From Hydrogenophaga sp. (GTDB lineage: Bacteria; Pseudomonadota; Gammaproteobacteria; Burkholderiales; Burkholderiaceae_C): 64,000 nt of DNA. The notes beneath the pieces were generated by a model. It made no database searches, had not been told where the DNA came from, and saw only the letters and a list, made by a program, of their open reading frames with translations. The position numbers and the translations under genes are program-made. Of the stretch, positions 22,299 to 39,920 are shown piece by piece (position 1 is the stretch's first letter; every line of letters starts with the position of its first letter). The stretch is taken from positions 1 to 64,000 of the forward strand of contig NZ_JAUSCF010000030.1 of assembly GCF_030651625.1 (NCBI RefSeq). The letters are read 5' to 3'.

Positions 22299-22341
22299 CT
22301 GTTGCTTGCTCCTGCGGTCACGTCATTCTGAAAGGCACACC

Positions 22342-23256
22342 ATGTTCCAACTTGCATTCATCGGCCTGGGTGCGATGGGATTACCCATGGCCAGAAATCT
22401 GCTGCGAAATCGTTTTGCTGTGCGGGGCTTCGACATCAACCCTCAGGCAATGCAGCTCCTCGTGGCAGAAGGGGGCGTGGCAACCCAATCGACTCGGGAA
22501 GCAGCTTGCGACGCTGAGCTGTTGATCCTCATGGTGGTCAACGCGGCACAGGCCGAAGACATTCTGTTCGAGGGTGAGGCCCTGGATGCAATGGCACCCG
22601 GCGGCATCGTATGCCTGATGGCCACCTGCCCGCCCGGATCGGTCGAACGAATCGCCGCAAGAGTGACCAGCAGCGGCCGCCGCTTTGTCGATGCCCCCGT
22701 ATCGGGGGGAACCGCCGGTGCCATTGCCGGTACGCTCACCGTCATGGCGGCGTGTGAAGCCTCCACCTTCACCGCCGTCAGGCCAGTTTTCGAAGTCCTG
22801 GGGAAACGCATCTTTCATGTCGGCACACAACCAGGACAAGGTGCCATGGTTAAAACGGTGAACCAGTTGCTGTGCGGTGTGCACATCGCGGTGGCGGCAG
22901 AAGCGTTCTCTCTAGCAGCCAAAGTCGGAGTTGATCTGAAAGTGCTGCTGGACATCATGGGGGGGTCGTCGGCATCCAGCTGGATGCTCAAGGACCGGGG
23001 GCCACGAATGATTCAGCCAGACCCCCAAGTCACCAGCGCAGTTGACATCTTCGTCAAAGATCTCGGGATCGTTCTCGAAACCGGACGAGAAACACAGACC
23101 GCCTTGCCAATCGCAGCCGTTGCACACCAGATGTTCCTGGCCACGGCTGGCCGGGGTGATGGGCGTGCCGACGACAGTCAGGTCATTCGGAGCTACTCTG
23201 CTCTTAGCGGAGTCGCATCTCTTTCATCTGGGTGCGGATCTGTGTGTAATATTTAG
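22342..23256 (+). CDS. 3-hydroxyisobutyrate dehydrogenase-family oxidoreductase
   Basis: The 304-residue protein has the beta-hydroxyacid dehydrogenase N-terminal motif FIGLGAMGLPMARNLLRNRF, substrate-binding FVDAPVSGGTAGAIAGTLTVM and catalytic lysine in GQGAMVKTVNQLLCG. The family includes 2-hydroxy-3-oxopropionate reductase and L-threonate/D-erythronate dehydrogenase; the sequence leans to the latter. Together with SDR, split transketolase and TRAP uptake it suggests catabolism of a sugar acid. The last 14 residues (after IRSYSALSG) look unlike the family and abut GST-remnant DNA, so the 3' end may have been altered by rearrangement. Confidence 0.85.
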   Translation: MFQLAFIGLGAMGLPMARNLLRNRFAVRGFDINPQAMQLLVAEGGVATQSTREAACDAELLILMVVNAAQAEDILFEGEALDAMAPGGIVCLMATCPPGSVERIAARVTSSGRRFVDAPVSGGTAGAIAGTLTVMAACEASTFTAVRPVFEVLGKRIFHVGTQPGQGAMVKTVNQLLCGVHIAVAAEAFSLAAKVGVDLKVLLDIMGGSSASSWMLKDRGPRMIQPDPQVTSAVDIFVKDLGIVLETGRETQTALPIAAVAHQMFLATAGRGDGRADDSQVIRSYSALSGVASLSSGCGSVCNI

Positions 23257-23365
23257 CATTGATCGGGATTCACGCCAAGACCTCTGCCGCACGGACCCCT
23301 TTCAGGCCGATGTGAGGTTGAAGTTGGAGTGGTTTTATGGAGGCTGTTCCTTGGCCCACCTTTTT

Positions 23366-23689
23366 TGTACTGAACACATCACCTCATTGGGTATCTCCGA
23401 GAAACTTTGGAAAGCCCGGTTTGACTCCACACCCCCCTGTGTCGTCCAGGATGGCCACCGCCAACGCTTGTTTGGCCGGCTTCAATGGTTGAGCCAGACC
23501 TTGATTAGAAAGGCCTATCTGCTAGGAGAGCACTATTCGATGGGCAATACCTACCTTTTTGTGATCCGTGGTTGGAGCAAGCTGGTGGGCTTGAACCTAT
23601 CGGACTTCACTCACCCGCAAGTGCTATTGGCCCGTGTCGGCAGTCACCCAGCGGTGCAGCGGACGTTGGCTTTCGAGGGGATGGCGTAA
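23366..23689 (+). pseudogene. Glutathione S-transferase remnant, C-terminal domain only
   Basis: In one frame from about 23366 to the stop at 23689 the sequence follows the all-helical C-terminal domain of bacterial GSTs: LFGRLQWLSQTLIRKAYLLG, HYSMGNTYLFVIRGWSK and HPAVQRTLAFEGMA. The thioredoxin-fold N-terminal half with the glutathione site is not found upstream in any frame. The usual aspartate of the DAYLFV capping motif is replaced (NTYLFV). A long in-frame extension back to 23042 overlaps the dehydrogenase gene and is not GST-like. It is a decayed or truncated copy. Its stop directly touches the GTG of the next gene. Confidence 0.65.
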
Positions 23690-24517
23690 GTGAAAAGCTG
23701 GTTCATTACTGGTATTTCCCGCGGCTTGGGTCTGGCCTTGGCCCGGGCGGTGCTGGCGGACGGCGACACCGTCGTCGGTACCGTGCGGGGGACGGCCGCA
23801 CCGCTGACAGCCGATGCAGGACGACTTCGGCTGCTTCACGCGGACATGGCCGACGAAGCCGCCGCCGTGTCAACGGTTCATGAGGCCTTCCAGGCACATG
23901 GGCCGATCGACGTCGTCGTCAACAACGCCGGCTACGGGCTGCTGGGTACGGTCGAAACTTCCACCGACGAGGAATTGCGGCACCTCTTCGAAGTGGACGT
24001 CTTCGCCCCGATCCGTGTCGTGCGAACCGCCTTGCCATACCTGCGGACACAAGGTAGCGGACACATTGTCAACATCACATCCATCGCCGGTCGCGCGCCG
24101 GGACCGGGCATTGCGCTCTACGCGGCGGCAAAGCATGCACTCGAAGGGTTTTCGGCGTCGCTGGCCCAAGAACTCGCGCCGCTGGGAATTCGAGTCACCG
24201 CTGTGGCCCCCGGCCAATTCCGCACGGATTTCCTGGACCAGCGTTCGGTGCGCATGAGCCGCCCAGCCGACTCGGCCTACGACACCTCCGTGGGGACCAG
24301 TCTGGTAGCACTGGACAAGATCAACCATCATCAACTGGGGGATCCCGCCAGGGCGGCGCGCGCCATCATTGAGGCCGTGCGCTCGGACAAACCACCGCTG
24401 CATCTGCTGCTGGGCTCCGACGCCCTGCGGCGTGCACGCGAGAAGTCGGCGGCTCAGGCCAGCGAGATGGAGGCCTGGGAAGCACTAAGCAAGGGCACCG
24501 ACTGCGACGACCTCTGA
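23690..24517 (+). CDS. Short-chain dehydrogenase/reductase (SDR), oxidoreductase
   Basis: The 275-residue protein reads KSWFITGISRGLGLALARAVL (TGxxxGxG), VVNNAGYGLLG, NITSIAGRAPGPGIALYAAAKHALEG with catalytic Ser, Tyr and Lys, and VAPGQFRTDFLD. This is the SDR subgroup with SRGLG and YxxxK common as stand-alone NADPH-dependent oxidoreductases; the arginine after the glycine motif and VRG before the second acidic position suggest NADPH. GTG 23690 follows the GST stop immediately, and GAGGGG at 23676-23681 serves as ribosome site inside the GST remnant. Substrate unknown. Confidence 0.85.
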   Translation: MKSWFITGISRGLGLALARAVLADGDTVVGTVRGTAAPLTADAGRLRLLHADMADEAAAVSTVHEAFQAHGPIDVVVNNAGYGLLGTVETSTDEELRHLFEVDVFAPIRVVRTALPYLRTQGSGHIVNITSIAGRAPGPGIALYAAAKHALEGFSASLAQELAPLGIRVTAVAPGQFRTDFLDQRSVRMSRPADSAYDTSVGTSLVALDKINHHQLGDPARAARAIIEAVRSDKPPLHLLLGSDALRRAREKSAAQASEMEAWEALSKGTDCDDL

Positions 24518-24883
24518 GCCTCTGGCAGCCTCAATGGCATAGATGCGTACGACACTGCCGCGCCACAGAGCCTCGTGCGCTGTGAAACTTCGGGCCTTGA
24601 GCGCCTTGGACACCATCAGCACCTTCTGGCTGGCGAATGCGCTGTCGCCATACGTGCACTGTTAGTGTCCGTACCGACCTGCCTCCTCGAGACGTACCAT
24701 CCAAGAATTGGGGAGTCCCCGCAACGGGCCTACTCACTTTGCAAGTATCAAATGTCTCCGGGTGGAGGCAAGGCCGTCGATCCCGGTGGCGAACGACATG
24801 ACTGTAGCTAAAGGACGGCACAGAGCCAGTGGCACTCCACCAAAAGTCGATCACCGCAATCTCACGGCCTCGACCATGAACCA
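24518..24883. other. Gap without a supported gene
   Basis: This 366-base stretch separates the SDR gene from the leftward hypothetical gene and begins the accessory region. On the minus strand a stop-to-stop frame from about 24665 to 24485 reads AFASQKVLMVSKALKARS and LWRGSVVRIYAIEAARG, which is protein-like but has no start codon and overlaps the SDR 3' end. It may be the tail of a broken gene. Nothing else is recognisable. Confidence 0.3.
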
Positions 24884-25324
24884 TCATTGAGAAGGCGTCC
24901 TCGCACACTGACTCCGGTCGCTGTTGCAGATGAACCGCGTTCCCGTTTCCCGTATCTCCATCTTCAGCTCCTCGCCCTTCTTCAGCACGATCACGTCGAA
25001 GAGCGGGTAGAAGGCATCGGCGGTCTCCACCACCATGCCGTGTGGCCGAAGAGCACGACCTGCATCCGCTGGGGTAACGGAGATTGCAGGACCAATGGAA
25101 ACGACCTTCGCCACCCGAAAGTACATCAGGAGGCCCCACACATGTATGAGCAGCGCAGCGATGGCGGCGGTCAGCAGGATGTACCACCACCATCGGCTTT
25201 CGTATCCCTCACTGTCGCTATTCGGCGATGTCGTCGGATGTTTCTCTGGCCACGAACTGCCGTTTCTGTTGGTTGGTTCTGATTCGCTCGGTGTCGATGG
25301 TGGCCGGGATGGATCGGGGGTCAT
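24884..25324 (-). CDS. Hypothetical single-pass membrane protein
   Basis: The 146-residue protein has a proline/serine-rich hydrophilic N-terminus of about 44 residues, one membrane helix (WWWYILLTAAIAALLIHVWG), then a C-terminal part with ISVTPADAGRALRPHGMVVE and VIVLKKGEELKMEIRETG. The layout suggests a cytoplasmic tail and a small extracytoplasmic domain, with Cys residues near the end. I do not recognise the family. It lies leftward near the integrase module and may belong to the mobile region. No strong ribosome site precedes ATG 25324. Confidence 0.55.
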   Translation of the reverse strand: MTPDPSRPPSTPSESEPTNRNGSSWPEKHPTTSPNSDSEGYESRWWWYILLTAAIAALLIHVWGLLMYFRVAKVVSIGPAISVTPADAGRALRPHGMVVETADAFYPLFDVIVLKKGEELKMEIRETGTRFICNSDRSQCARTPSQ

Positions 25325-25523
25325 GAAGTGGCTTTCAATGTTGTGATGAATGAAGATGTTTTGGGCTGGCTGTGCCGAGGGAAGCGCTTGACAAAGCGTT
25401 CACGGCAAACTCAGACACACCCTCTCAAAAAGGCTCTCATGCAAGTGCTCGCTGTCAAGGGTGACTCGTGTACTCCGCAGACCGATAAACATCGCTGCGG
25501 GTTGTTTGGATTGAGTCAATCGA

Positions 25524-26327
25524 TCAAACGCCTTTGAGCACCTGCCCTGCTCCCCACTCCGCCTGAATCGGCAGGTTGCTCAAATGCACCGCTGCGGCAA
25601 TGCGGGCCACCTGCTCAGCGTTACGCACATCGCGCGGCGCTTGGTCCAGCACGGCGGTCATAGTCTCTCCCCTGGCTGGGTCCTGGCTACGCAGATCGCG
25701 CAATGCGTCTTCCAGCAGCAGTAGCTTGATCTTCTGCACCTCTGCGGGCGTGATCCCGTCCGGCCCGTAGTGGGTTTTCACATAAGGGTGTGCGCAGTGG
25801 AACAAGGCGCAGGACTGCACAAAGGCGGCCGTGAAAACAAAGCCACGTTCCCGGGTATCGATCACCTTCATGCCCGCAGCTCTCTGTCCAGCCCGAATGG
25901 CTTCACGCAGGGGAAGAAGCGCCGGCATGGGTACAGCTGGGTCACCACCCTTGGGCAGGCGCATGTGGTGGAACACCTCCACCATCAGGTTGTCCTGGAA
26001 CACCTTGTTCAGGAAGCGTTCCAGGAAAGTGTCATTCACCTGCGGGCGTTCAGCGTGCATGCGGTTGCGCAGCAGGCTGACCCACTTGGGATGCATGCGC
26101 ATCGGATCACCGGGGAGGTAGACCTCGGGCACTTCTCGCGTGGGAGGAAGCGCCACCGGGCCGGTCAGGCCCTGCAGGATGAGTGAATCCGCGGGCACCA
26201 GTGGTGCATGCTGAGCGAGGCCAGCGCTGGGCACTGGTGGAAAAACACTCACCTTCTGCGCGCGCACCGGGCGGCTGGTGCTGTTTGCAGAAGAAGCGTG
26301 AACATTGCGTCGGATGGGATTGTTCAT
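25524..26327 (-). CDS. Hypothetical mobile-element-associated protein
   Basis: The 267-residue protein has a basic 25-residue N-terminus, then REVPEVYLPGDPMRMHPKW, LERFLNKVFQDNLMVEVFHHM and RGFVFTAAFVQSCALFHCAHPYV. The last stretch recalls the core helix of HD-domain proteins found in integrative elements, but the HD pair itself is absent, so no activity is proposed. AAAGGA lies six bases before the ATG, a good ribosome site. It runs in the same direction as the integrase, downstream of the gene at 26446-26973, and is probably part of the same element. Confidence 0.6.
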   Translation of the reverse strand: MNNPIRRNVHASSANSTSRPVRAQKVSVFPPVPSAGLAQHAPLVPADSLILQGLTGPVALPPTREVPEVYLPGDPMRMHPKWVSLLRNRMHAERPQVNDTFLERFLNKVFQDNLMVEVFHHMRLPKGGDPAVPMPALLPLREAIRAGQRAAGMKVIDTRERGFVFTAAFVQSCALFHCAHPYVKTHYGPDGITPAEVQKIKLLLLEDALRDLRSQDPARGETMTAVLDQAPRDVRNAEQVARIAAAVHLSNLPIQAEWGAGQVLKGV

Positions 26328-26445
26328 GATGTGTCCTTTGGTGCAATGAAGGTTTCAGAGATTGGTCTCAGGGGGCAAAGCAGTCGTGGACGGAGTGAAG
26401 CGCGCACAGACAGAAGTGGCTTGCGGTTTCACCCCTCCAAACCGG

Positions 26446-27178: not shown

Positions 27179-28654
27179 TTAGCAGCCCATGGCGGTTACT
27201 GCGTTCGCTCTGCTGTATTGCGGGTGCGGCACAGAGAACGAATTCGCAGGAAACCACCGGACACCCGGCGGTGGCTGGGCATCACCGGGGGCCTGTCGCT
27301 GTGCTTTGGCGCGTTGGCCTGAGATGCCCCTGGGCTTGGGTGTGGGTTGTGGGCTCTGCTGGTCGGCCGTCACGTACAGCGGAAGGCCGGGCGCACCAGT
27401 CTGGCTTGAAGAGGCATCCGGCTGGTGGCGCACCAGGGGGCCGTGGTTCATCCGGTTGGCCAGCAGGCGTTCCATGGCCGAGCCGTCCTGGCGGGTCATG
27501 TTGGGCACGTACCGGCTGTAGGTGCGAAACAGCATTTCGGTGCTGGTGTGGCCCAGTTGCCGTGCGATCCATTCGGGTGCTTCGCCCGAGGCCAGCCACA
27601 GGGTGGCGGCGGTGTGCCGCATCTGGTACGGGCGGCGCTGCTCGTAGCCCAGGTGGCGCAGCAAGGGATACCAGACCCGCTTGGTGAAGTTGGTGTTGTC
27701 CAGGGGTTGGCCCAGCAGGTTGCAGAAGACGTATTCCGACACTTTCCCGGTGACTTGATGCTGGCGCAGCAAGGCATCGAACACCGGCTGGCTCATCTGG
27801 ATGTCGCGCTGGCTGCCGTCGGTCTTGGTGTAGTCGTCTTCACCCAGCACGTGGGTCTCACGCACCAGGATCAGCCGATGATCGAAGTCAAGGTATTTCC
27901 ATTTCAGTCCATTGATCTCGCCGGTGCGCATGCCGGTAAAGAAGCGCACCATCAGGTAGTCCTTGAAGTCAGAACGGATGGTGGCCAGGATGGTTTGCAC
28001 CTGATCCAGCGAGAACGGCTGGATATCGGCCTTGCGCACCCGAAGGCGTTTCACGTTCACAGCGGGTGAGGTGAACTCGAAGCGTTCTGCGGCTTCGGCC
28101 ATGATCTGTCTGAGCGTGCCCATGATCTCGTTGATGCGCTTGGCAGACAGGCCCGTGCTTTCTCCACGACCGGGTTCTTTGGCCAAAGCGGCACGAAATG
28201 CCAAGACGTCCGTCTTGGTGATGCTGGCGATGGGCTTCTGACCGAAGTGCGGCTTGATGCGGCCATCGAGTGTAGAGAGCAGCGAGCGGATGTGGCTGCG
28301 GCGCCATTCGATGCTGCGTTCTTGTACCCACTGGTCCGCGAAGTCGCTGAAGGTGGGGCCTGCAGCTGACTCGGCCAACACCTCCGGCGGGGCAGGTGCA
28401 ACTGACAGGACCGATGGGGTCTCCTCCACCTGAGGTTTCGTGAAACGCGCCAGCGCCTTGCTTGAGGGGAAATAGGCTTTGTAGTCAAACGAGCCTGCCT
28501 CGATCTCTGCCTCGATGCGTGCCAGTACTTTTTCCATTTTCCGGCGGTTCACAGGGCTGTCAGGCAGCGCGGTGTATTCGCGGCAGCGTTGACCCTGGTA
28601 GCGGAAGTCGAAAAAGAGCATGCCATTCGGCTTGTGCACACGAATGTTAGGCAT
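27179..28654 (-). CDS. Tyrosine recombinase / phage-type integrase
   Basis: The 491-residue integrase has an N-terminal Arm-type domain (MPNIRVHKPNGMLFFDFRY, YTALPDSPVNRRKMEKVL), a SAM-like core-binding domain and the catalytic domain. The catalytic residues are Arg in FFTGMRTGEINGLKW, H-x-x-R in YQMRHTAATLW, His in LGHTSTEMLFRTYSRY and the Tyr in that last motif. The C-terminal 90 residues are proline-rich and variable. ATG 28654 has GGAGG eight bases upstream and overlaps the excisionase-like gene by eight bases. It would insert or excise a genomic island; the attachment site is not identified. Confidence 0.9.
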   Translation of the reverse strand: MPNIRVHKPNGMLFFDFRYQGQRCREYTALPDSPVNRRKMEKVLARIEAEIEAGSFDYKAYFPSSKALARFTKPQVEETPSVLSVAPAPPEVLAESAAGPTFSDFADQWVQERSIEWRRSHIRSLLSTLDGRIKPHFGQKPIASITKTDVLAFRAALAKEPGRGESTGLSAKRINEIMGTLRQIMAEAAERFEFTSPAVNVKRLRVRKADIQPFSLDQVQTILATIRSDFKDYLMVRFFTGMRTGEINGLKWKYLDFDHRLILVRETHVLGEDDYTKTDGSQRDIQMSQPVFDALLRQHQVTGKVSEYVFCNLLGQPLDNTNFTKRVWYPLLRHLGYEQRRPYQMRHTAATLWLASGEAPEWIARQLGHTSTEMLFRTYSRYVPNMTRQDGSAMERLLANRMNHGPLVRHQPDASSSQTGAPGLPLYVTADQQSPQPTPKPRGISGQRAKAQRQAPGDAQPPPGVRWFPANSFSVPHPQYSRANAVTAMGC

Positions 28655-28892
28655 GGAGCATTCCTCCATTCGCCATAGGGATCCCCGTCATGCCCACCGG
28701 TCTCGTCTGGGAGACGGACTTCATGTCCCGCTCGATCGTCTCCCACACGTAAAGGATCTTTCGGCCCCCAAAGGGCCGAAAGTAGTGAACGCCCTCAATC
28801 AACACGCTGTCCTTGAGGCGTTCGCGGATGGTGCGCACGTCGTACTTGATCCGTGTGGACAGTTCGTCAGTGGTCAACAACTCAGATGTCAT
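28647..28892 (-). CDS. Excisionase-like small helix-turn-helix protein
   Basis: The 81-residue protein begins TSELLTTDELSTRIKYDVRTIRERLKD, a MerR/excisionase-type winged helix that binds att DNA, followed by GVHYFRPFGGRKILYVWETIE, the wing pattern seen in excisionase-like proteins next to integrases. It is directly upstream of and overlapping the integrase gene, so the pair is one operon. It probably directs excision and may regulate the promoter at 28893-29034. Confidence 0.75.
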   Translation of the reverse strand: MTSELLTTDELSTRIKYDVRTIRERLKDSVLIEGVHYFRPFGGRKILYVWETIERDMKSVSQTRPVGMTGIPMANGGMLHA

Positions 28893-30048: not shown

Positions 30049-31056
30049 TTAGAAGTGGCCTGAGCCTTCCACAAATCTCGTTCCCCAACGAACGGATTCG
30101 TCTTCCTGGATCATCTCACTGACCATGGAAAAATCATTCTTGACGGAGAACACGTAACGCTCCGCTTCCAGCACCTGCAGCGAATTGAAGTGTTCAACGT
30201 TCTCGGGGCGGACTTCCGTCATGGAGCCTGCCAGAAGCGCCTCTACGATGCCGGAAATCTCCTTCCGCTGCGCTCTGAGCGAGCTAGGCTCCCCGAGCCT
30301 GCCCACAAGCAGCCGATCAATGCGCTCGGTCCCATCGATCATCATTTCTAGAAATGTAGGGCACATCAAGGAAAGCGCTAGTGTTGGAGACAGCGGAAAG
30401 TACAGCTGAACCCCGATGGACGCCAAGCCGAGCTTCCAGCGGCCTTCCGCATTGGGGTCATTGAACCGAACGACCGGATGATCCCCCATGAAAAAAGGCG
30501 TGTCGTCGGTGGTCTTGATCAGATGCCACACCTTCTGCAGCAGCAGGGGCGCCCAGTCCCTCGACGCATTGGCTATCAATGCCGCGTAGTGGGCCTTTCG
30601 CGCGTTCTCCTTGCTGCCGACCAAAGGGTCGGGCTGGAAGAACTCCTCCGGGGCGCCCTCCGCACGAAAAAACCCTTCCATGCGACTAGAAAGATCGTCG
30701 AAGTTTGCCATCGTCGCCTTGGTGCGCACGAGCTGTACCGCCATGAAGCTGGCGAGAATTGCCTTCTCTTCATGCCAGGCAGGGGGAAGCGCATGAGCCG
30801 CGATGACCCGCGCAGTGACATCGGCGGCCTTGGTTTCAAGGCTGCTCAGTGCGGGTTCCAGTGTCAGGGGAACCCCCTGAAAATCAAAATCGTAAATGGC
30901 CCGCTCCGCCGCGACACCTACTTTAGATTTCTTCGACGTGGAGAACGCAAAAATCTTGTCCTGGTGCTTGTCGAACGCATGCACCAATTCACGCCCACCA
31001 GAGGAGAACCGCCGCAGCATGAACTTGGGCACGTAGTGCTGCAATGGTTCGCTCAT
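30049..31056 (-). CDS. DUF4238-type protein in the defence operon
   Basis: The 335-residue protein begins SEPLQHYVPKFMLRRFSSGG, the start pattern of DUF4238 proteins (QHYVP..YLR.F), followed by IYDFDFQGVPLTLEPALSSLE and, in the centre, TPFFMGDHPVVRFND, the second conserved block of that family. Biochemical function is unknown; the conserved His and Asp positions might form a nuclease-like site. ATG 31056 has GGGAGCGG upstream; a longer frame to 31080 has no advantage. It follows the AbiJ-type gene after 89 bases in the same direction, suggesting an accessory of the Gabija operon. Confidence 0.7.
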   Translation of the reverse strand: MSEPLQHYVPKFMLRRFSSGGRELVHAFDKHQDKIFAFSTSKKSKVGVAAERAIYDFDFQGVPLTLEPALSSLETKAADVTARVIAAHALPPAWHEEKAILASFMAVQLVRTKATMANFDDLSSRMEGFFRAEGAPEEFFQPDPLVGSKENARKAHYAALIANASRDWAPLLLQKVWHLIKTTDDTPFFMGDHPVVRFNDPNAEGRWKLGLASIGVQLYFPLSPTLALSLMCPTFLEMMIDGTERIDRLLVGRLGEPSSLRAQRKEISGIVEALLAGSMTEVRPENVEHFNSLQVLEAERYVFSVKNDFSMVSEMIQEDESVRWGTRFVEGSGHF

Positions 31057-31145
31057 TGAGCCGCTCCCAGGGCCAAGCATGCCCCGATCGAGACTTGCAG
31101 CCCTGCTTCAATGAGATCTGAACCCGAGCACATGAGCCTTGACTC

Positions 31146-32057
31146 CTAGCGAGGTGCGTTCTTGCGAATCACCAGATCCACCAACGAAAAGAGCCTGTGA
31201 AACAGGTAGTCGACATGTTCTGTGTCAATCACAGGTGTTTGGCTTCGCTCGTGATGGCGCAACAGATAGCTGTTCCCAATCTCTCGAAGCTCCAAGGCCT
31301 CCTTCTCAAGAAGCTGCCGAAATGCCGGTTCGGGGCTTGCTCTGTCCAGAACCAACTTCGCCGACTTGGCCTTGTTTTCGTCTGCCAATGTCTTGATGCG
31401 CTCCCATGAATCGAACAGTCGCTCCAGTGCTTCACGGCGGATCAGTGGATCGGGATCGGAAAATTTCCTGCGCGCTTCTTCCAGCATAACGTCGAGCAAT
31501 TGGTCCCCGGTCCGAAAGTAGGTCCTCGCGAGCAAGTCCCCGATGATTGCTGGCAAGATCCGTCGGACATCGCCGCTTTCGGTAATCTCATAAGCCAGCC
31601 CGTTACGCGCGAGGATGCGGTTCACATCGGTCACGAACGCAGAACGCCCGTCCGCACTATCGAAAGTCAGATGGTGATGGCGGTAGTGATCGTGAACTCG
31701 TCCCAGAATCGGCCGTGAAACGCTTCTCCATACGAACTCGATGAAATCGAGCGCCACAAGGGTCGGGGGAGCCCACGGCTTTCCCGACCGCATGAAATCA
31801 TCTTCATCGATCTTGTCACGTTGCAGTGGCCATGACAGGCCCTCGATCTCCGCTTCGATTGCGCTTTTCAGCATGTCCGTGTCGTTGCCACAGATTGCAT
31901 GACCATCAGGACATTCTTGCGGAAACGACGCCCCGAACGCTCCGGACTTCGCCAGGGCCTCAACCAGGACCGCAATGCCGGCCCATGCCACTGGACTCAT
32001 CGTCTGCTCGGTACGGGCCCTCGGCCCGAGCTCCCGATCACTGAAATAGTTGCCCAT
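31146..32057 (-). CDS. AbiJ N-terminal-domain-4-like protein (abortive-infection related)
   Basis: The 303-residue protein starts GNYFSDRELGPRARTEQTMS, then VAWAGIAVLVEAL and ECPDGHAICGND, which matches my memory of the AbiJ-NTD4 domain associated with abortive infection and HEPN proteins. The C-terminal 120 residues are helical with a histidine-rich segment (LLRHHERSQTPVID) and could hold a HEPN-like or other effector fold; the R-x4-H HEPN motif is not certain. It starts 12 bases after gajB, so it is probably co-transcribed and may add an effector or sensor to Gabija. It could also be an independent Abi gene riding in the operon. Confidence 0.65.
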   Translation of the reverse strand: MGNYFSDRELGPRARTEQTMSPVAWAGIAVLVEALAKSGAFGASFPQECPDGHAICGNDTDMLKSAIEAEIEGLSWPLQRDKIDEDDFMRSGKPWAPPTLVALDFIEFVWRSVSRPILGRVHDHYRHHHLTFDSADGRSAFVTDVNRILARNGLAYEITESGDVRRILPAIIGDLLARTYFRTGDQLLDVMLEEARRKFSDPDPLIRREALERLFDSWERIKTLADENKAKSAKLVLDRASPEPAFRQLLEKEALELREIGNSYLLRHHERSQTPVIDTEHVDYLFHRLFSLVDLVIRKNAPR

Positions 32058-32069
32058 GGGATCGGTCCT

Positions 32070-33599
32070 TCAACGGAGCTTGAACAGGGGACTTGGATTG
32101 GATGTCGGAACCACCAAGGTGAGCGACTTTTTCGCCCTGCTAAGGGCTACGTACATCTTGGACTTGGCGTACAGGGTCGATGTGAACTGCGCCTTGTCGC
32201 AGGCCATCAGCATCACGTGGTCGCACTCGAGGCCCTTCGCCTTGTGAATACTGCTGAGCACCTTTTTAGGTAATGAAGGATGGGAATAAGAGCGCATGCG
32301 CGACACCTCCGCAAATCCTTCGTCGGGACCTGCAAACTGGCCGATGCGCACAGCATCCCGCAGCTCGGATCTGTGATCGATCTTCACGGTGTCGAAGCCC
32401 GCAGCAGCGTCCTTAGCCAGCGTACAAATTTTTGAGAGCGCGTCCGACACACCCGTGTGCGAGGGATTGTTCAGCAGGCATCGTGCGACTGCTTGGATGT
32501 TGGCCGGCTTTCCTGTGGTGGGGCGAGCTGCCCCGGTGCGGACTTCCTGCAAAAGTCGGTCACCGTGGCTGGATGGGCTGAATCCCGCCGCAACGCTGCC
32601 CATGAAGGTGATGACACCCTGTGCCAGCGCTTCCGGATCGCCATGACCGGTGCGCAGTGTCTGCACAAGCGCCGCCAGCGCATCACGCGTATGCCCTTCC
32701 CAGATCGGTACTGTCCGAAACCAAAAGGCTCGGAGTGCCGACACCAAGTCGTTTTGCGACGCGAGAACCATCAACTGTGTGTTGTCTTTCAGCACCTTGT
32801 CGATGGGCGCCCTGTGGTCCTTGGACAGTTGGTAGCCCGTTCGCATCTGAGCTGTGTTGTTTCCGATAAGCACCCTCACGGAAAGAGGCAGTCCTCCTGT
32901 CAGGTCGATCGGAGTTCCGCGCTCCAGACTCGCGCGCGCCTCGATGACCCAAGCTCCCAACAGGGGACAACCGGTTTGCCAGCGATGAGGCGTGATCAGC
33001 TTCTCGCCGGCTCCCTGCGCCTTCAAAGCGTCCCAGCGAACAAGATCCTCGCGCGCGGCTTTGTCGGTCTTGGCCCCGTAAATCCGCTGCATGGGATCGC
33101 CAAAAATCCGGACGGTTGATCCAGCGGACAGCAAGGACATGACAACACTGTGCTGATCGACACTGGAGTCCTGATGTTCATCGCACACGATGACTGGATA
33201 TCGTCGGGCCAGTGCACGAGCCACCATTGGCTGATGGCGCAGGAATCCCGCAACCTTGGTCGCCATGATCTCAAAGCCTTGTCCACCACCCTGCCACGCC
33301 CAGGATGTCAGATCTCGCGGCAAATCCAGTGGCTTGTGGTACGCCAGGGCTATCTGCGCAATCAAGGCATCGATGGTCTTGATTTCAACGCGTGACCCAG
33401 CCTTCTTCGTGCGTTCTGCGAAGACACCGCAAGCAGCGTGAGTGTGCGTCAGGATGAGCAAGCGGCCATCACCGAGCCCTCCAACCACCTCCTGCGCGTA
33501 CGCAGCCCCTTGGTATGTCTTGCCGCAGCCCGCTGCAGCTTCGATGATCACCAGTGGCTCGGGGGAGCGGAGAAGCTTGGCGACGGCCTGGTCTCTCAT
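32070..33599 (-). CDS. gajB: Gabija defence protein GajB, UvrD/Rep-type helicase
   Basis: The 509-residue superfamily 1 helicase has Walker A EAAAGCGKT (residues 20-28), motif Ia THTHAA, Walker B VIVCDEHQDSS (136-146), motif III IFGDPMQRIYG, motif V SIHKAKGLECDHVML and motif VI VALSRAKKSL. The size fits GajB, about 500 residues. ATG 33599 overlaps the gajA stop (ATGA); a frame running back to 33836 is only overlap. In Gabija, GajB binds the GajA tetramer and senses or processes DNA ends, enabling GajA cleavage of phage DNA. The pairing with an OLD-family nuclease gene makes the assignment firm. Confidence 0.88.
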   Translation of the reverse strand: MRDQAVAKLLRSPEPLVIIEAAAGCGKTYQGAAYAQEVVGGLGDGRLLILTHTHAACGVFAERTKKAGSRVEIKTIDALIAQIALAYHKPLDLPRDLTSWAWQGGGQGFEIMATKVAGFLRHQPMVARALARRYPVIVCDEHQDSSVDQHSVVMSLLSAGSTVRIFGDPMQRIYGAKTDKAAREDLVRWDALKAQGAGEKLITPHRWQTGCPLLGAWVIEARASLERGTPIDLTGGLPLSVRVLIGNNTAQMRTGYQLSKDHRAPIDKVLKDNTQLMVLASQNDLVSALRAFWFRTVPIWEGHTRDALAALVQTLRTGHGDPEALAQGVITFMGSVAAGFSPSSHGDRLLQEVRTGAARPTTGKPANIQAVARCLLNNPSHTGVSDALSKICTLAKDAAAGFDTVKIDHRSELRDAVRIGQFAGPDEGFAEVSRMRSYSHPSLPKKVLSSIHKAKGLECDHVMLMACDKAQFTSTLYAKSKMYVALSRAKKSLTLVVPTSNPSPLFKLR

Positions 33600-35356
33600 A
33601 GATCGAGCTTTTGCAAGGCTTTGCGACCCACGGCTGTTAGTACCACATTGATCAACGGAAGCAACTGCGGCTGGATGTCCGCCCAAGCGCCTAGCGCGAC
33701 CATTTTCTGGGCCAACTCCTGCCCACCGACAGTGGACTTGAACCACTGCTGGGAATGCTTCTTCCAAGCCTTTTCTTGACCTGCGGGCGCCCCGTCCTTG
33801 CTGCCGCTGGCGGCGGCAGTGATCAGCGCGCGCCACGTTTTTCCAGAGGCTTTCAGCGCCGCGTCTATCGCCTCGGTGCTCTTGTCTTGAAGTCCAAGGC
33901 GTTCCGCCAAAGTCCGAAGTCGATAGCCGTCCAGTTCGCCTTCTGCATCCTTCAGCAGTTCGAGAAGATTTGCTTCGGGAACGGCCCCGATCACATGATC
34001 TTCAGTGCAGCCCTTCTGCCATTGGTGCAGCCGCCCGTTGAGCTTGTCCTTCAGCTTCTTCCAACGCTCCGGAGCGGTGCCCTCGTCGTCCGCCAAGCCG
34101 GCAAATAGCAAACCGGAAGACGCGAGCGTCTCCAACAGATCCAAGGTCGCTCCATTGCCCTGACCATCGCAGACTCGCACCCCGTGATCGAGCGGGTTGC
34201 CCTCGAAAGCCTTCTCTAGTAGGTACTGCAAGAAACCAACTTCGGTGGGTCCTTCTGCAATGACGGCCACGCGCGCCAGGAACGTTTCAGGGTCGCGCTT
34301 CTGCTGTGGCCCGATCTTGGCCCGAGGTAGCGCACCGATGGAGCCCAGGCTGTCCAGATACCAGAGGTGTGCGTCCTCTGCACACGAAATGGCGACAGGG
34401 CTGTGTGTCGTGAGGAAGATCTGCCCGTGTTGGCCAGCCAGGATATTGATGAGCTTGCGCAGACGGTACGGCTCAAGCCCGCGCTCGATCTCATCGATGA
34501 GCGTAACACTTGCTTCTTTGTCCGTTGACGATGCTATCTCGAGTGCAGCCATCCGTCTGGTACCCGCACCCCAACTGCTCAGAGGCAACGCCACCCCGTG
34601 TTTAGTTGCCATCAAACCAATGAGCGCGCCGATGGACAACCCCTGACTGGTAGTAAGGCCGAGTTTCAATTTACTGGGAAGCGCAGCACCGGCCATGCGC
34701 GCATCCAGTGATTCGATCGCCTCCTTACCCTTCTCATTGAGCGAGTCGTGCAAATTGAGCCCCGCCACCTCCTTGCCGATACGCGCCCGCAGTGCATTGT
34801 CGGCAAGCAACCGATCCAGAGCGGAGCCATAGACAAGTCGCATATCGCGATCATTGCGCTCATCAGCGCTCATACGGACTAGACCGATCCGCCGGCGTAC
34901 GGTTGTCGAGAAATGGTCAAATTCTTCGTTAGGCTGCATAACCTCCCACGCGAGTTCTAACTCCGTGGTCCCCCGCAAGCGCACGCGATACACCGGCTGG
35001 CCGGGCACTGGAAAGTCGCCCTCACCGTCGGCGGAGGGGGCAACAGCATCTTTCCCATTCCACGCCCATGGCCAAGCGAAGGTGTTTTGCGAACCTATAC
35101 CGGTTGCCTCGGGAAGTGCCATGACGGCCTCGATGATGAACTCCTGCCCACTGTCCCGCGCCCAGTAGTCGGCCTCGGAGAGGACCGCAGTGTTGGACGG
35201 CGAGAGCAAGAGCGCAATCGCTTCGAGGACTGTCGTTTTTCCTACGTCACCCCCACCCAGGAGAATGTTCATCCCCTCCGCAGGCAGCCATGTCAGGGAC
35301 TGGATGCCCCTAAAACGTAGGATGGTCAGTTTGTGAATACGTGCCGTTTGAGCCAT
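33596..35356 (-). CDS. gajA: Gabija defence protein GajA, OLD-family ATPase/TOPRIM nuclease
   Basis: The 586-residue protein matches GajA in length and order. The ABC ATPase half begins IHKLTILRFRGIQSLTWLP, Walker A is GGGDVGKT (34-41), Walker B TLIDEIERGLEPYR (from 285) and H-loop TTHSPVAIS (about 316). The TOPRIM half has VIAEGPTEVGFLQYLLEKAF with Glu near 368 and LADDEG with Asp near 423-424, which bind catalytic metals. GajA is a sequence-recognising DNA nickase held inactive by nucleotides and released when phage depletes them. It is first in a leftward operon with gajB, AbiJ-type and DUF4238-type genes. Confidence 0.88.
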   Translation of the reverse strand: MAQTARIHKLTILRFRGIQSLTWLPAEGMNILLGGGDVGKTTVLEAIALLLSPSNTAVLSEADYWARDSGQEFIIEAVMALPEATGIGSQNTFAWPWAWNGKDAVAPSADGEGDFPVPGQPVYRVRLRGTTELELAWEVMQPNEEFDHFSTTVRRRIGLVRMSADERNDRDMRLVYGSALDRLLADNALRARIGKEVAGLNLHDSLNEKGKEAIESLDARMAGAALPSKLKLGLTTSQGLSIGALIGLMATKHGVALPLSSWGAGTRRMAALEIASSTDKEASVTLIDEIERGLEPYRLRKLINILAGQHGQIFLTTHSPVAISCAEDAHLWYLDSLGSIGALPRAKIGPQQKRDPETFLARVAVIAEGPTEVGFLQYLLEKAFEGNPLDHGVRVCDGQGNGATLDLLETLASSGLLFAGLADDEGTAPERWKKLKDKLNGRLHQWQKGCTEDHVIGAVPEANLLELLKDAEGELDGYRLRTLAERLGLQDKSTEAIDAALKASGKTWRALITAAASGSKDGAPAGQEKAWKKHSQQWFKSTVGGQELAQKMVALGAWADIQPQLLPLINVVLTAVGRKALQKLDL

Positions 35357-36170: not shown

Positions 36171-37400
36171 ATGGCTGAGCCCAGATCGACAATCAACCTC
36201 CTGCTTTCGGACCTTGCGACAACCGCGCCGTTGCCGCAGGCTGGGCAGAGCGTCGTCATCGCAGTTCCAGACAGTTACCTCACTGATGAGCGATTCGAGC
36301 TTGCAGGTGTCGAGGGGCTGGCCATACAACGGCTCATTACGCTGGCACACAATGCCACTTCTTTGAAGGTCATTTGGGATACTGCCGCCGCCCGACGCTT
36401 GCTGGATTCGCCCTCGGTACATCCCTTAGCTGCAGTTGCTCTGTGCTTGAACAACGCTGAGCACTCGCTGGCCGAGAATGCACAACTTCCCCTAGACGCC
36501 TTTGAGCGCGCCCGAACAAAACTGCTGGGCCACAAGCTCGCCACCGATATGTTCTCGGATCGGCAGGCGCTCATCTGCTTGGACTTCGAACGACCGAGTC
36601 TACCCTCCGACCTTTATGAGCCTTCCACTCGCAGGCTTAGGCCGGAAGCTGATTTCGAGTCCCTAATCGACGATCTCGTGTACGCCCAACATGGCGCGGG
36701 CTTCAAGGCGGAAAGACTTTCCAAATTGAGAATGGCTCTGGCAATCATTCTCCGTGAGCTCCTCGAGAATACGGATGATCACGCAAAGACAGGCTTCGAC
36801 GGTAGCGTGCTTAAGCCCAACTCCATCCGGGGACTGTTGGTCAAGCGCATTCTCGAGACCCGGCGACTGCCTAACCGCGCTGCCACAGATTTGCCACCAG
36901 TTCCCTGCTTGGAATTCACCATCTTCGACTCGGGCATTGGCTACTACAACTCCTATCGGCGACAGCTGCTGCGCGGTCAAGCCAGAGGTGATCCGGTCGC
37001 CGTGGGCGACAAACAGGCCGACCTTGTTCGTAGGTTTGAACTAGGCCCTGACCTGTCCGTCGAGACCGAATATGCCATCGTTTTGAAATGCCTTGAACGG
37101 CATTCCGAGAATGCAATACCCGACCCAAGGGCTGGTCATCGTGGGATGGGACTCTACGAGGTGCTTCGAGCTCTGAAGATGATGCAAGGCATGCTCGAAG
37201 TCCGCACGGGGCGTATCCACGGCTACCGTAGCTTTCTAGAAGGTGAACTTCGTATTCAACTTGAGCCAGAAACATCCGAGACTCGGCCCGGTATGCCGAA
37301 GGCATCGCTGCTCGATGTTGATAGAAGGATGCTTAAGTCCCCTGCGCCCCGCGACTTGGTACGCGGCTCTGTTGTTCGTGTTGTCGTACCTCTCGCATGA
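36171..37400 (+). CDS. GHKL-fold ATPase, first gene of a candidate two-gene defence system
   Basis: The 409-residue protein has an unrecognised N-terminal domain (1-160) and a C-terminal GHKL ATPase domain. The N-box is LRELLENTDDHA (about 194-205, Glu and Asn for Mg-ATP), G1 FDSGIG (252-257), G2 AGHRGMGL (321-328) and a G3-like RGSVVRVVVP near the end. No phospho-acceptor histidine helix, PAS, HAMP or membrane helix is present, so it is not an ordinary sensor kinase. It is closer in layout to MORC/Hsp90/MutL-type conformational ATPases. The stop overlaps the next gene (ATGA), so both proteins probably act together. It lies beside Gabija in the accessory region. Confidence 0.75.
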   Translation: MAEPRSTINLLLSDLATTAPLPQAGQSVVIAVPDSYLTDERFELAGVEGLAIQRLITLAHNATSLKVIWDTAAARRLLDSPSVHPLAAVALCLNNAEHSLAENAQLPLDAFERARTKLLGHKLATDMFSDRQALICLDFERPSLPSDLYEPSTRRLRPEADFESLIDDLVYAQHGAGFKAERLSKLRMALAIILRELLENTDDHAKTGFDGSVLKPNSIRGLLVKRILETRRLPNRAATDLPPVPCLEFTIFDSGIGYYNSYRRQLLRGQARGDPVAVGDKQADLVRRFELGPDLSVETEYAIVLKCLERHSENAIPDPRAGHRGMGLYEVLRALKMMQGMLEVRTGRIHGYRSFLEGELRIQLEPETSETRPGMPKASLLDVDRRMLKSPAPRDLVRGSVVRVVVPLA

Positions 37401-39655
37401 GCTACCAAACCGAGATGCAGGGCCTCTGGCTTCATACGAGGTATCGGGAGGCTCAGTATGAAGGCGAGGCCTGCCTATTGGTGTACGACGTCGATTCCTT
37501 CGATGACGCCTTGGTGGGCGCGGACGTTAAGCAGGTCTTCGAGAGGCGCGCTGGAACTGCCAACATCTTCATCGCAGCTCCCTTCCTTAGGAGTGAGACG
37601 TGCAGGGAGGCACTTGGGACTGGCGTGGCGCTACAACGCGCAAGCGCATACATGTCAGCCAAGAGCGGACGCGTCTATCTGCTTGAGATGCAGGTCGACA
37701 CCAACACGACGGAGGTTTCAATCGTGACTAGTTTGCTGAGTTGGGACAGCACCTTGATGAAAGTTCAGTTCGAGGAGCCCAAGCTCCTCGAACCGATCCT
37801 CCGCGAGGGATGGCTTTTCGATCTGTTCGACTCCAACGAAGGCCTTGTAATCGCTCCACCTGGCGTCCATTTCCGCAAGAGTTCTAGCAAGCACACGGAC
37901 AAGTTCCTGCGGGCTGCCAACACCCTTACATCGTCCAGCGCATGCGGCTTGCTGGCAATGTTCGCGTTGGCGACGCTCGCTCCGCGGACGCCCAAGCGCA
38001 TCTTGGTCGATACGGCACCCCTGCTATCGCTGGCCTACGCCATGATGCGTGTGGCGAGAGTTCACGACATTTGGGAAGCAGACGTTCCGGCACGTTCCTT
38101 CAGCTCGTACGGTGGCCAGTCGAGATTGCGCCGGTTGTCTATCAACGACGTGATCCTCATCTCCGCGACGACCTCTGGCTCTCTAGCCGCCAGCCTCAAA
38201 GCCCAGCAGGCGCATGAGGATTCGATCGTCACCCTCTTCTCCCTCTGCTCAAAAGAAGCGGTGCCTCCTCCAAACGTGCTGTGCGACTTGACCGTGACTG
38301 CAGAGCGTAGCTTTGGATACCCGCCGGTAGAAAACTACGCTGCATCTGACTGCTCACTGTGCAAGTCCGAGTTCATTCTTGCGGAGCTTGAGGGCGATCA
38401 GTTCCTTCTGCAGCAGCGACAGCATCGTCTATTGAAGTTTGTGCAGACCACTCAGTCCAACGATGCTCGTACAACGCTTACCGAGCTTTATGGCTTCAAA
38501 GCAATCGAAGTTGTCCTGCGTCCCGACGCGACAAGGCCTTCAACAATCGAGGTTAACGAAGCGCACCTTCTTGAATGTCCAGACATCCGTAAGGACCTCA
38601 TTCGTCATCTTCGTCGGTACGCTCCTCAACCGCTTGCCCTGATCGTGCGGGTCAGTATTACCGAGAGTCAACTCCATAGCTTGATCACCGAAGCCGGCAT
38701 CGGTGCTGCGGTTGCGGGCGCTAGCGTCGTGGAGTGGGCAGACGTCGCCTCTCACGCTGTTTTGGGCGATGGCAAGGGCGCCTTGGTGATTTTCGGTTGC
38801 CTGTCCAGCCATACGGTGGCCCGGCAAATCAACGCATCGCTCCGGTCAAAAGTCAATAACGGAAACGTCGCGTATGTGTCGGCACTAACTCTCGCTGAAA
38901 CGCCTGAGCAGTACCTGGATCTCAAGATGTTCCTCGGGTATGGCGAACGAGGTTCTGACACCTTCACATACCGAGACTCGCGCAGACTAGCGTTGCCTGG
39001 CCGCAGTGCCGACAGGAGCCCCTGGGCGGAAGAACTTGATCTTCTAAATGATCTTGCAGGTCATAGCATCGCTGAATTCGAAGCTCGACGTTCAGTGCTA
39101 TCCACAGCGTTGACTGGAAGAGACGCGATCTTTTGGCCTGGCCTCAACGGCCCACTCGCGATCCAGCGCGACTTCGTTTACCTTGACACTGGTTCGGGCA
39201 CTGAATCAATTTCACAGGCCGACGTCTTCGCTGTCGTATCAAACCTGTTTGCCTCCGCCCGTTCAGGGAGTAACGAGTTGACTAAGAAGCCGTCAGGGAA
39301 CGATGCCATCGCTTTAACGCAGTCCGTATACGGCCACGTACTGTTGACGCCCGAAGCATTCATGACTTTCAACGACGGGGTGCTGAAAGCGAGTCTTCTG
39401 CGGGCAGCTCGAAAGAGCGACCTGATGTACGACGTCGATGCTGGTTACAGCACACGTATGTCGGAGATCGTGCTTGCAGAACTCTCAGGGTGGCCTGCCG
39501 GTACCGGCGATGCGCTTCCGGAGATGCTTCTTGCCCTAGCTACGAATCGCCTGCGGTTGCGTGATGCCGAGCGGACTGCGATTCGCAGCAGGGCAATCGC
39601 CGCAGATTTACCACTTTACCTTTCGGCGCTCGCGCAGGCGATTCCGAACGGATAG
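37397..39655 (+). CDS. Large protein with phosphoribosyltransferase-like core, second gene of the pair
   Basis: The 752-residue protein lacks signal peptide and membrane helices. Residues 1-150 are an alpha/beta domain of unknown type. Residues about 157-290 look like a type I phosphoribosyltransferase fold: HFRKSSSKHTDKFLRAAN, then RILVDTAPLLSLAYAM (strand and PPi-loop-like turn) and DVILISATTSGSLAAS (251-266) at the position of the PRPP-binding loop, where classical enzymes have an acidic pair and TGGT. A Cys pair CSLC (319-322) follows. Residues 400-752 are unrecognised. ATG 37397 overlaps the GHKL stop. The enzyme may make a ribosylated signal or modify a target, but loss of the acidic pair leaves catalysis open. 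Confidence 0.6.
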   Translation: MSYQTEMQGLWLHTRYREAQYEGEACLLVYDVDSFDDALVGADVKQVFERRAGTANIFIAAPFLRSETCREALGTGVALQRASAYMSAKSGRVYLLEMQVDTNTTEVSIVTSLLSWDSTLMKVQFEEPKLLEPILREGWLFDLFDSNEGLVIAPPGVHFRKSSSKHTDKFLRAANTLTSSSACGLLAMFALATLAPRTPKRILVDTAPLLSLAYAMMRVARVHDIWEADVPARSFSSYGGQSRLRRLSINDVILISATTSGSLAASLKAQQAHEDSIVTLFSLCSKEAVPPPNVLCDLTVTAERSFGYPPVENYAASDCSLCKSEFILAELEGDQFLLQQRQHRLLKFVQTTQSNDARTTLTELYGFKAIEVVLRPDATRPSTIEVNEAHLLECPDIRKDLIRHLRRYAPQPLALIVRVSITESQLHSLITEAGIGAAVAGASVVEWADVASHAVLGDGKGALVIFGCLSSHTVARQINASLRSKVNNGNVAYVSALTLAETPEQYLDLKMFLGYGERGSDTFTYRDSRRLALPGRSADRSPWAEELDLLNDLAGHSIAEFEARRSVLSTALTGRDAIFWPGLNGPLAIQRDFVYLDTGSGTESISQADVFAVVSNLFASARSGSNELTKKPSGNDAIALTQSVYGHVLLTPEAFMTFNDGVLKASLLRAARKSDLMYDVDAGYSTRMSEIVLAELSGWPAGTGDALPEMLLALATNRLRLRDAERTAIRSRAIAADLPLYLSALAQAIPNG

Positions 39656-39756
39656 TCGTCTGCAATTGTCTGGGTGGCTATCTACCCAACGGTCGTATTC
39701 AGATGAACCGACCCAAAGGTCGCAAATCCGAATGGGTCAACCATGGCTGTCTACAG

Positions 39757-39789
39757 ATGGGCTAGAAATGGGCTACGGATGGGCTACAA
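39757..39789. repeat. Three tandem 11-bp repeats ATGGGCTA(G/C)-NN
   Basis: ATGGGCTAG/C recurs at 39757, 39768 and 39779 with period 11, directly between the end of the accessory genes and the terminator of the tRNA-fMet gene. The period of about one helical turn is typical of recombinase arm sites or regulator sites. It may mark the island edge. Confidence 0.6.
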
Positions 39790-39816: not shown

Positions 39817-39843
39817 CAATGACAAGCAAGTGCTTGATTTTGT

Positions 39844-39920
<77 letters not shown>

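Follow-up and report, generated by a model that had tools for sequence, protein, structure and literature searches.

A two-gene PDC-M65 pair beside Gabija in Hydrogenophaga, a GHKL-type ATPase and a phosphoribosyltransferase-like protein with a candidate role in anti-phage defence

The window analysed here is the whole stretch of 64,000 nucleotides at positions 1 to 64,000 of contig NZ_JAUSCF010000030.1 from Hydrogenophaga sp., and its subject is a pair of genes, called A and B below, that overlap by 4 nt in the sequence ATGA:

36171..37400, + strand: gene A, GHKL-type ATPase, PDC-M65A family, 409 amino acids (aa)
37397..39655, + strand: gene B, PDC-M65B family, 752 aa

A sequence-only reading of this DNA had described two genes joined by an ATGA overlap, divergent from gajA and beside a tRNA gene, and these coordinates and neighbours have been verified. 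Against PADLOC-DB 2.0.0, A matches the candidate model PDC-M65A at 1e-15 and B matches PDC-M65B at 6.7e-69, and the two lie adjacent in the order, A then B, that the PDC-M65 system calls for. The same two models are matched by all 39 A and all 39 B proteins of the homologue set described below, and the window's A is a weak member, its 1e-15 comparing with 3.7e-149 for the best. By its profile matches, then, the window pair is a divergent member of the catalogued, uncharacterised family PDC-M65, which it resembles in both protein families and in its two-gene make-up, with no difference at the family level. PDCs are putative candidates from a 'guilt-by-embedding' screen and are mostly unvalidated, according to the part of PMC12988326 drawn on here. 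The abbreviations PRTase and HATPase appear in two figure legends of the DefensePredictor paper, in the portion used here, and one system there could be related (PMC13092281). The open-access literature searched, with other papers and supplements outside its scope, holds no paper on PDC-M65 or spelling variants of that name. The earlier statement that no named system has this pair thus needs amending, since both families are catalogued as PDC-M65, and stands in so far as no published name or test was found.

A and B are a genuine conserved pair. At 39 of 41 loci, drawn from a single scan of genome contigs whose open reading frames (ORFs) were then searched with profiles, A lies directly upstream of B in the same order; the exceptions (L051 and L052) have B fragments only. 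Loci L006-L008 duplicate L017, L046, and L031 and are excluded from the counts, and L024 and L027 (nearly identical B) and L041 and L042 (one metagenome bin) are kept and counted separately. The spacing between the two genes ranges from overlap up to 8 nt apart and is an overlap of exactly 4 nt in 17 of the 39, long overlaps being uncertain because ORFs were taken from the first start codon. Distance matrices of A and B over 38 loci are correlated with r = 0.944 (none of 5000 permutations as high, the top permutation reaching 0.20), values to which shared host descent adds. The hosts belong to the Pseudomonadota, Bacteroidota, Planctomycetota, Melainabacteria, and Thermodesulfobacteriota, and the B fragment of L051 is acidobacterial. 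This gene order, kept across several phyla, bears out the earlier description of a two-gene system. At L034, A is spread over two ORFs, and at L047 (7208-10432) B is interrupted by two genes that, as their sequences read, resemble IS21-type istA and istB.

The pair is patchily distributed. Among 369 genomes at the class level, full-length A occurs only in G000 and G479, and B is present in both; five further A matches there cover part of the protein and score weakly (E 3e-5 to 1e-3). B is found in three of the 369, the window's own genome included (those two and G394, whose copy is a fragment that contains a stop codon), and a search of 147 genomes, its own again counted, gave B in 4. Three genomes of the window's genus hold copies that are not sisters in a tree of B: the window groups with Trinickia dabaoshanensis, H. 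borbori groups with Trinickia mobilis and Paraburkholderia elongata, and H. aromaticivorans lies beside Variovorax on a remote branch. The window's B and that of L012 form a long-branched pair in this tree, in which long branches are unsure. Horizontal transfer seems the best account of the tree pattern, with paralogy as the alternative. The small number of genomes with B and the non-sister copies within one genus led to rejection of a housekeeping pair.

Protein A has an N-terminal alpha/beta domain (about residues 20-175) followed by a GHKL domain (about 180-407), in which the N-box, G1, and G2 of the GHKL ATPase superfamily are all present:

36756..36782, + strand: GHKL N-box of A (E196...N200...H204), from alignment and occupancy
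36927..36941, + strand: GHKL G1 box of A (D253-x-G255-x-G257), with D, G, and G in 39/39
37143..37154, + strand: GHKL G2 box of A (G325-x-G327-L328), with G327 and L328 in 39/39 and G325 in 38/39

Six positions (N200, D253, G255, G257, G327, and L328) are invariant in the alignment of 39 sequences, and E196 and H204 are each present in 34. HATPase_c is the sole recurrent Pfam match among the homologues (12 of 39 A proteins, best 4.8e-5), and no Pfam model, HATPase_c included, matched the window's A. The structural model of A has a predicted local distance difference test score (pLDDT) of 77.5, and the solved structures ranked best by Foldseek are CheA P4 ATP-binding domains at E 0.012; on these matches A may have the Bergerat fold of the GHKL superfamily. 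No histidine-kinase dimerisation or phospho-acceptor domain was found by Pfam in the window's A or among the six Pfam families of the 39 members. With the boxes near-invariant in 39 rows and no such domain, the earlier view of a complete GHKL ATP site without kinase parts is upheld. In PHROGs, A matched one family of unknown function (7e-4) and B none.

Protein B is the larger of the two and includes three parts, of which two are probably like phosphoribosyltransferases (PRTases), the second with the phosphoribosyl pyrophosphate (PRPP) loop in register:

37829..38431, + strand: B domain 1 (about residues 145-345), Rossmann-like and related to domain 2, from the model and profile comparison
38564..39031, + strand: B domain 2 (about 390-545), PRTase-like, from profile comparison
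39032..39652, + strand: B C-terminal, mainly helical domain (546-752), from the model, with invariant E546, R564, N659, D660, R669, and E709 and no assignment to a known fold

The model of B (pLDDT 86) gives ten Foldseek matches at E <= 0.001, beginning at 5.5e-6 and with probabilities of 0.93-1.00, that are to 4paw (an orotate PRTase by its PDB name), orotate PRTases, and a UMP synthase; PurR is next in the list at 1.0e-3, and GlmS/GFAT is also listed. The target-normalised TM-scores of the ten are moderate (0.26-0.51), and the aligned range of B is not reported. B was also compared with a profile of 25 PRTases from the window's genome and four relatives, from which 5 of 30 PRTase loci had been excluded as truncated by the end of a contig, incomplete, weak, or containing a stop. 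Domain 2 (390-545) scores 24.0 against this profile, with none of 200 column shuffles as high and the PRPP loop in register; domain 1 scores 23.5 against domain 2, with 1 of 200 column shuffles as high, and in a control the C-terminal region of B had 128 of 200 shuffles as high. The whole-family B profile has 4paw as its sole PDB match (E 0.21), the Pfam model Pribosyltran matches 1 of 39 B members (0.063), and a viral structure library gave mostly low-probability matches, the interpretable ones being PRTase-type enzymes and GFAT. Model and profiles together support a PRTase fold for the core of B, and B probably has two tandem PRTase-like domains. The structure prediction thus matched PRTase folds as anticipated, and the earlier PRTase-like core stands as a fold (Foldseek, profile comparison), with the correction that the core at 251-266 is not alone, a second domain at about 390-545 being probable.

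A sugar isomerase (SIS) fold was considered for B as well. Against an SIS profile (9 of 30 loci excluded on the same grounds), domain 1 scores 10.8 and domain 2 scores 14.6, and the N-terminal 150 residues of B score 18.7 in a comparison without a shuffle control; an SIS fold is not preferred for B on these scores, and the N-terminus might have one.

The fold of the B core is that of the orotate PRTases and PurR (PDB 4paw, 2aee, and 7rmw), from which B differs in having two such domains plus others and no in-register acidic pair. PurR is a PRTase fold that serves as a ligand-binding regulator. The loops that correspond to the PRPP loop lie as follows:

38150..38185, + strand: loop of domain 1 (252-263, consensus LISASTSGxL), in which serine replaces the second Asp of PRTases
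38780..38818, + strand: loop of domain 2 (462-474, consensus VVVASxIxSGxxL), from the alignment

None of the 39 B sequences is acidic at either aligned position of the PRPP-loop dyad in either loop, which makes PRTase chemistry, and with it a role for B as a catalytic type I PRTase, unlikely. The loop glycine and Ser/Thr are mostly kept. Eleven residues are invariant in B (S163, D205, S256, R483, E546, R564, N659, D660, L668, R669, and E709); they are spread over the domains, and the densest charged set is in the helical C-terminus. Of the 39 sequences, 29 have a CxxC pair at 319/322. The window's own B deviates at H472 (G in 31 of 39), T657 (R in 37), K664 (Q in 37), and D705 (E in 36), and its nearest relative, L012, deviates at the same four positions.

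Around the pair, the window contains the following recognised features:

33596..35356, - strand: gajA (Gabija), divergent neighbour, PADLOC GajA 9e-70
32070..33704, - strand: gajB (Gabija helicase), PADLOC GajB 4e-53, start codon uncertain
27179..28669, - strand: tyrosine integrase, left of the Gabija/pair region, Pfam Phage_integrase 1.3e-19
39844..39920, - strand: tRNA-Met, right edge of the variable region, ARAGORN

To the left of the pair, the minus strand carries gajA, gajB, a PDC-S32/AbiJ_NTD4 gene, a DUF4238 gene, and the tyrosine integrase. The Gabija members, the OLD-like nuclease GajA and the helicase GajB, are neighbours of the pair, and A and B are not themselves Gabija by PADLOC. 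The PDC-S32/AbiJ_NTD4 and DUF4238 genes (30049-32057) follow gajB immediately and in the same direction, so the window's Gabija may be part of a four-gene run. The tRNA-Met is the sole tRNA that ARAGORN finds in the window, and the ORFs to its right read as a ribosomal protein operon.

This tRNA gene marks the border of accessory DNA. Of 24 other genomes of the genus, 20 have the tRNA-Met-rplQ-rpoA segment at close to its full length. In six relatives similarity to the window stops at 39787-39789 (five) or at 39843 (the sixth), which shows that the sequence adjoining the tRNA varies. The accessory nature proposed earlier is thus corroborated, the tRNA side being kept in relatives and the DNA on the side of the pair not. 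In the left flank (22300-26400) only short matches were found in the 24 other genomes, and no second copy of the tRNA 3′ end was found within 3 mismatches in the window. An inverted partial copy of part of the tRNA-Met, with 3 mismatches in 22 and about 130 bp away, lies at 39712-39733 (chance expectation 0.00). Members of an integrase cluster flank five loci and the window (checked with Pfam in the window only). Searches of mobile carriers matched 9 of 72,556 plasmid records and none of 50,697 phage records, and one IMG/VR contig carries the pair (L113, 4692-9498), followed by a STAND-type nucleoside triphosphatase (NTPase) gene and a SIR2_2 gene. In marine Gammaproteobacteria (L026, L030, and L037) the pair is beside a cluster that reads as gcvP/gcvH/gcvT, a possible insertion hotspot.

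The neighbours of the pair are frequently defence genes. BLAST clusters of flank ORFs, from contigs in many of which the flanks are cut, place HsdR at nine loci, HsdM at seven, and HsdS at six, and type I restriction-modification (RM) touches 10 of 41; a Pfam check of nine of the 22 Hsd proteins and one extra HsdS (L046) agreed in 10 of 10. In a less biased check, HSDR_N has 55 matches in the roughly 203.7 Mb (sizes rounded) that make up the genomes behind 40 of 41 loci, with L042 omitted. Seven of these matches (one partly), assigned by coordinates and gene positions, fall inside the 0.72 Mb of the loci, where 0.19 are expected (Poisson P ~2e-9, with clustering and shared descent ignored), and one more is just outside L019. 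PADLOC was run on 20 large neighbours picked by eye, a biased set and part of all neighbours, and matched 15 of them: GajA and GajB (L032 and L048), a GajB-like helicase (L022), Avs3a (L024), JetC (L016), HamA/LmuA with LmuB (L033), QatC and ZorA (L012), IetS (L044), a SIR2-nSTAND protein (L049), PDC-M30A (L038), and a NERD-UvrD protein (L031) are present, and 5 of the 20 have no match. These are mostly single components rather than whole systems. At least one defence or candidate gene is found at 17 of 41 loci, and beyond hsdR, hsdM, hsdS, and the integrases no family occurs at four or more loci in the BLAST clusters that could be a third partner. The counts of neighbours, with type I RM at 10 of 41 loci and gajAB in the window and two others, agree with the defence-island setting proposed before, and as sequence context the neighbours lend support to a defence role. 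GajA and GajB adjoin the pair in distant bacteria as they do in the window, at L048 (11845-14629) and L032 (141-4120).

Among known systems, DprA-PPRT is said to pair a defence gene with a PRTase; its name does not occur in the papers listed by a literature search, and PADLOC gave no DprA match in the four genes of the window's flanks to which it was applied. The Shedu protein VcSduA of Vibrio cholerae is an anti-phage protein whose N-terminal GHKL ATPase is hypothesised to control its effector domain (PMC12137116), and in this it resembles the pair, with a GHKL ATPase as proposed controller of an effector. It differs in being a single polypeptide with a DUF4263 nuclease, and no PRTase-like part is described in the portion of that paper drawn on here. 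Type III retrons have a PRTase-like protein as defence effector, and there, in the part of the source used, the effector works with a reverse transcriptase and a non-coding RNA (PMC12548924). In the window, scans of four flanking genes and of the integrase gave no reverse transcriptase.

The analysis shows the conserved pairing, the B core fold, the motifs, the loss of the in-register dyad, the patchy and mobile distribution, and the defence neighbourhood. The pair very probably serves in anti-phage defence, and A and B would form an obligate two-protein, horizontally transferred defence module. How it might work is a more tentative matter, and the mechanism that we favour, at somewhat short of even confidence, is a GHKL switch, A, coupled to an effector, B, with ligand-binding PRTase-like domains. 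GHKL proteins close and open as dimers with ATP, and A, which has no recognised kinase parts, would do likewise in an ATP-dependent manner; it is possible that A senses or remodels a target. B would be the likely effector. Since the acidic pair is lost at its usual place, the PRTase-like domains of B probably bind a ligand instead of catalysing transfer, and this ligand would be phosphorylated (PRPP, a nucleotide, or a nucleic-acid end). The helical C-terminal domain would be the effector part, with the invariant E/R/N-D/R/E set as its most plausible active site or target-binding site. A trigger during infection would shift A in its ATP state or B in its ligand state, and the C-terminal activity of B would then be released, with the most likely outcome that the cell or the phage is stopped. 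A bolder version, in which B would found a new class of immune receptor-effectors, is rather unlikely; here the duplicated, catalytically dead PRTase fold would sense infection through the level of PRPP or nucleotides, or through nucleic-acid ends, and under the gating of a GHKL clamp would turn on an undescribed all-helical effector enzyme.

Several observations weigh against this interpretation. No phage experiment on the pair was found in the open-access literature searched, and several loci have no recognised defence gene nearby, for example L014, L026, L030, and L037, at which the pair is beside core genes that read as mutS or gcvP. The G394 fragment of B with its stop codon has no A match. 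The Foldseek likeness of A to GHKL proteins is weak, 0.012 being its best E. For B, HHalign itself gives domain 2 a probability of just 9% against PRTases, the same domain scores lower against profiles of orotate PRTases only (14.7) or adenine PRTases only (18.5), and domain 1 (145-345) has no direct match to the PRTase profile, with 49 of 200 shuffles as high. In loop 1 the residue that replaces the second Asp is an invariant serine, which could point to new chemistry instead of an inactive site. Finally, a displaced acidic pair, at positions 470 and 471 of loop 2, is present in 7 of 39 B sequences (L014-L018, L021, and L031), and four more, the window not among them, have one acid at 470-471. 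The displaced pair sits three to four residues beyond the PRTase register, its seven carriers are related, and because of these displaced acids another register or chemistry is possible. The carriers are perhaps a subgroup with different chemistry.

These last points bear most directly on the proposal that B is an active PRTase-type enzyme, regulated by A, whose product is a nucleotide signal or a modified nucleotide or macromolecule. The PRTase fold, the largely retained loop glycine and Ser/Thr, and the displaced pair in loop 2 all speak for it, as does the use of PRTase-like effectors by type III retrons (PMC12548924, in part). We nevertheless regard it as unlikely, because not one of 39 sequences is acidic at either aligned dyad position, the displaced pair is absent from 32 of 39 including the window, and domain 2 of the window lacks the loop glycine too (His472). 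The sequence-only reading of B as the maker of a signal or modifier of a nucleotide loses support accordingly, with the seven displaced pairs as a point in its favour. If instead A phosphorylated B in the manner of RsbW/SpoIIAB-type switch kinases, its N-box, E-x-x-x-N-x-x-x-H, which we take to resemble that of such kinases, and the invariant serines S163 and S256 of B would be accounted for; but S256 is in a PRTase-type loop and so is otherwise explained, the window's A has no Pfam match, and the homologues' only recurrent one is the general HATPase_c, which leaves this idea quite improbable.

The genomic context allows other readings as well. The pair often follows immediately after an hsdS or hsdR gene in the same orientation (L022, L031, L039, L046, and L048) and adjoins gajAB in the window, L032, and L048, as would be expected of an accessory that tunes type I restriction or Gabija rather than a stand-alone system. 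This is distinctly unlikely, in that 31 of 41 loci have no type I RM gene in the BLAST clusters, many flanks being cut, and the partners vary among RM, Gabija, Avs, Lamassu, Wadjet, and Zorya components; such changing partners fit island clustering. A non-defence role, in the maintenance of a mobile element or as an island module akin to a toxin-antitoxin system, would suit two overlapping genes with a patchy distribution and integrase-cluster members in the flanks of five loci and the window, but it is very unlikely for large proteins with an ATPase that cluster with defence genes, and the IMG/VR contig, with the pair followed by STAND-type and SIR2 genes, fits defence.

The favoured mechanism, a GHKL switch acting on a ligand-binding effector, concerns a family that is known by no more than a catalogue number, although it spans several phyla and is often found alongside defences such as type I RM and Gabija. 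With its altered PRPP loops, B shifts the question from which product is made to which ligand is bound and what the C-terminal domain does. If ligand sensing by B is true, the fold of a housekeeping enzyme would act in this family as an immune sensor.

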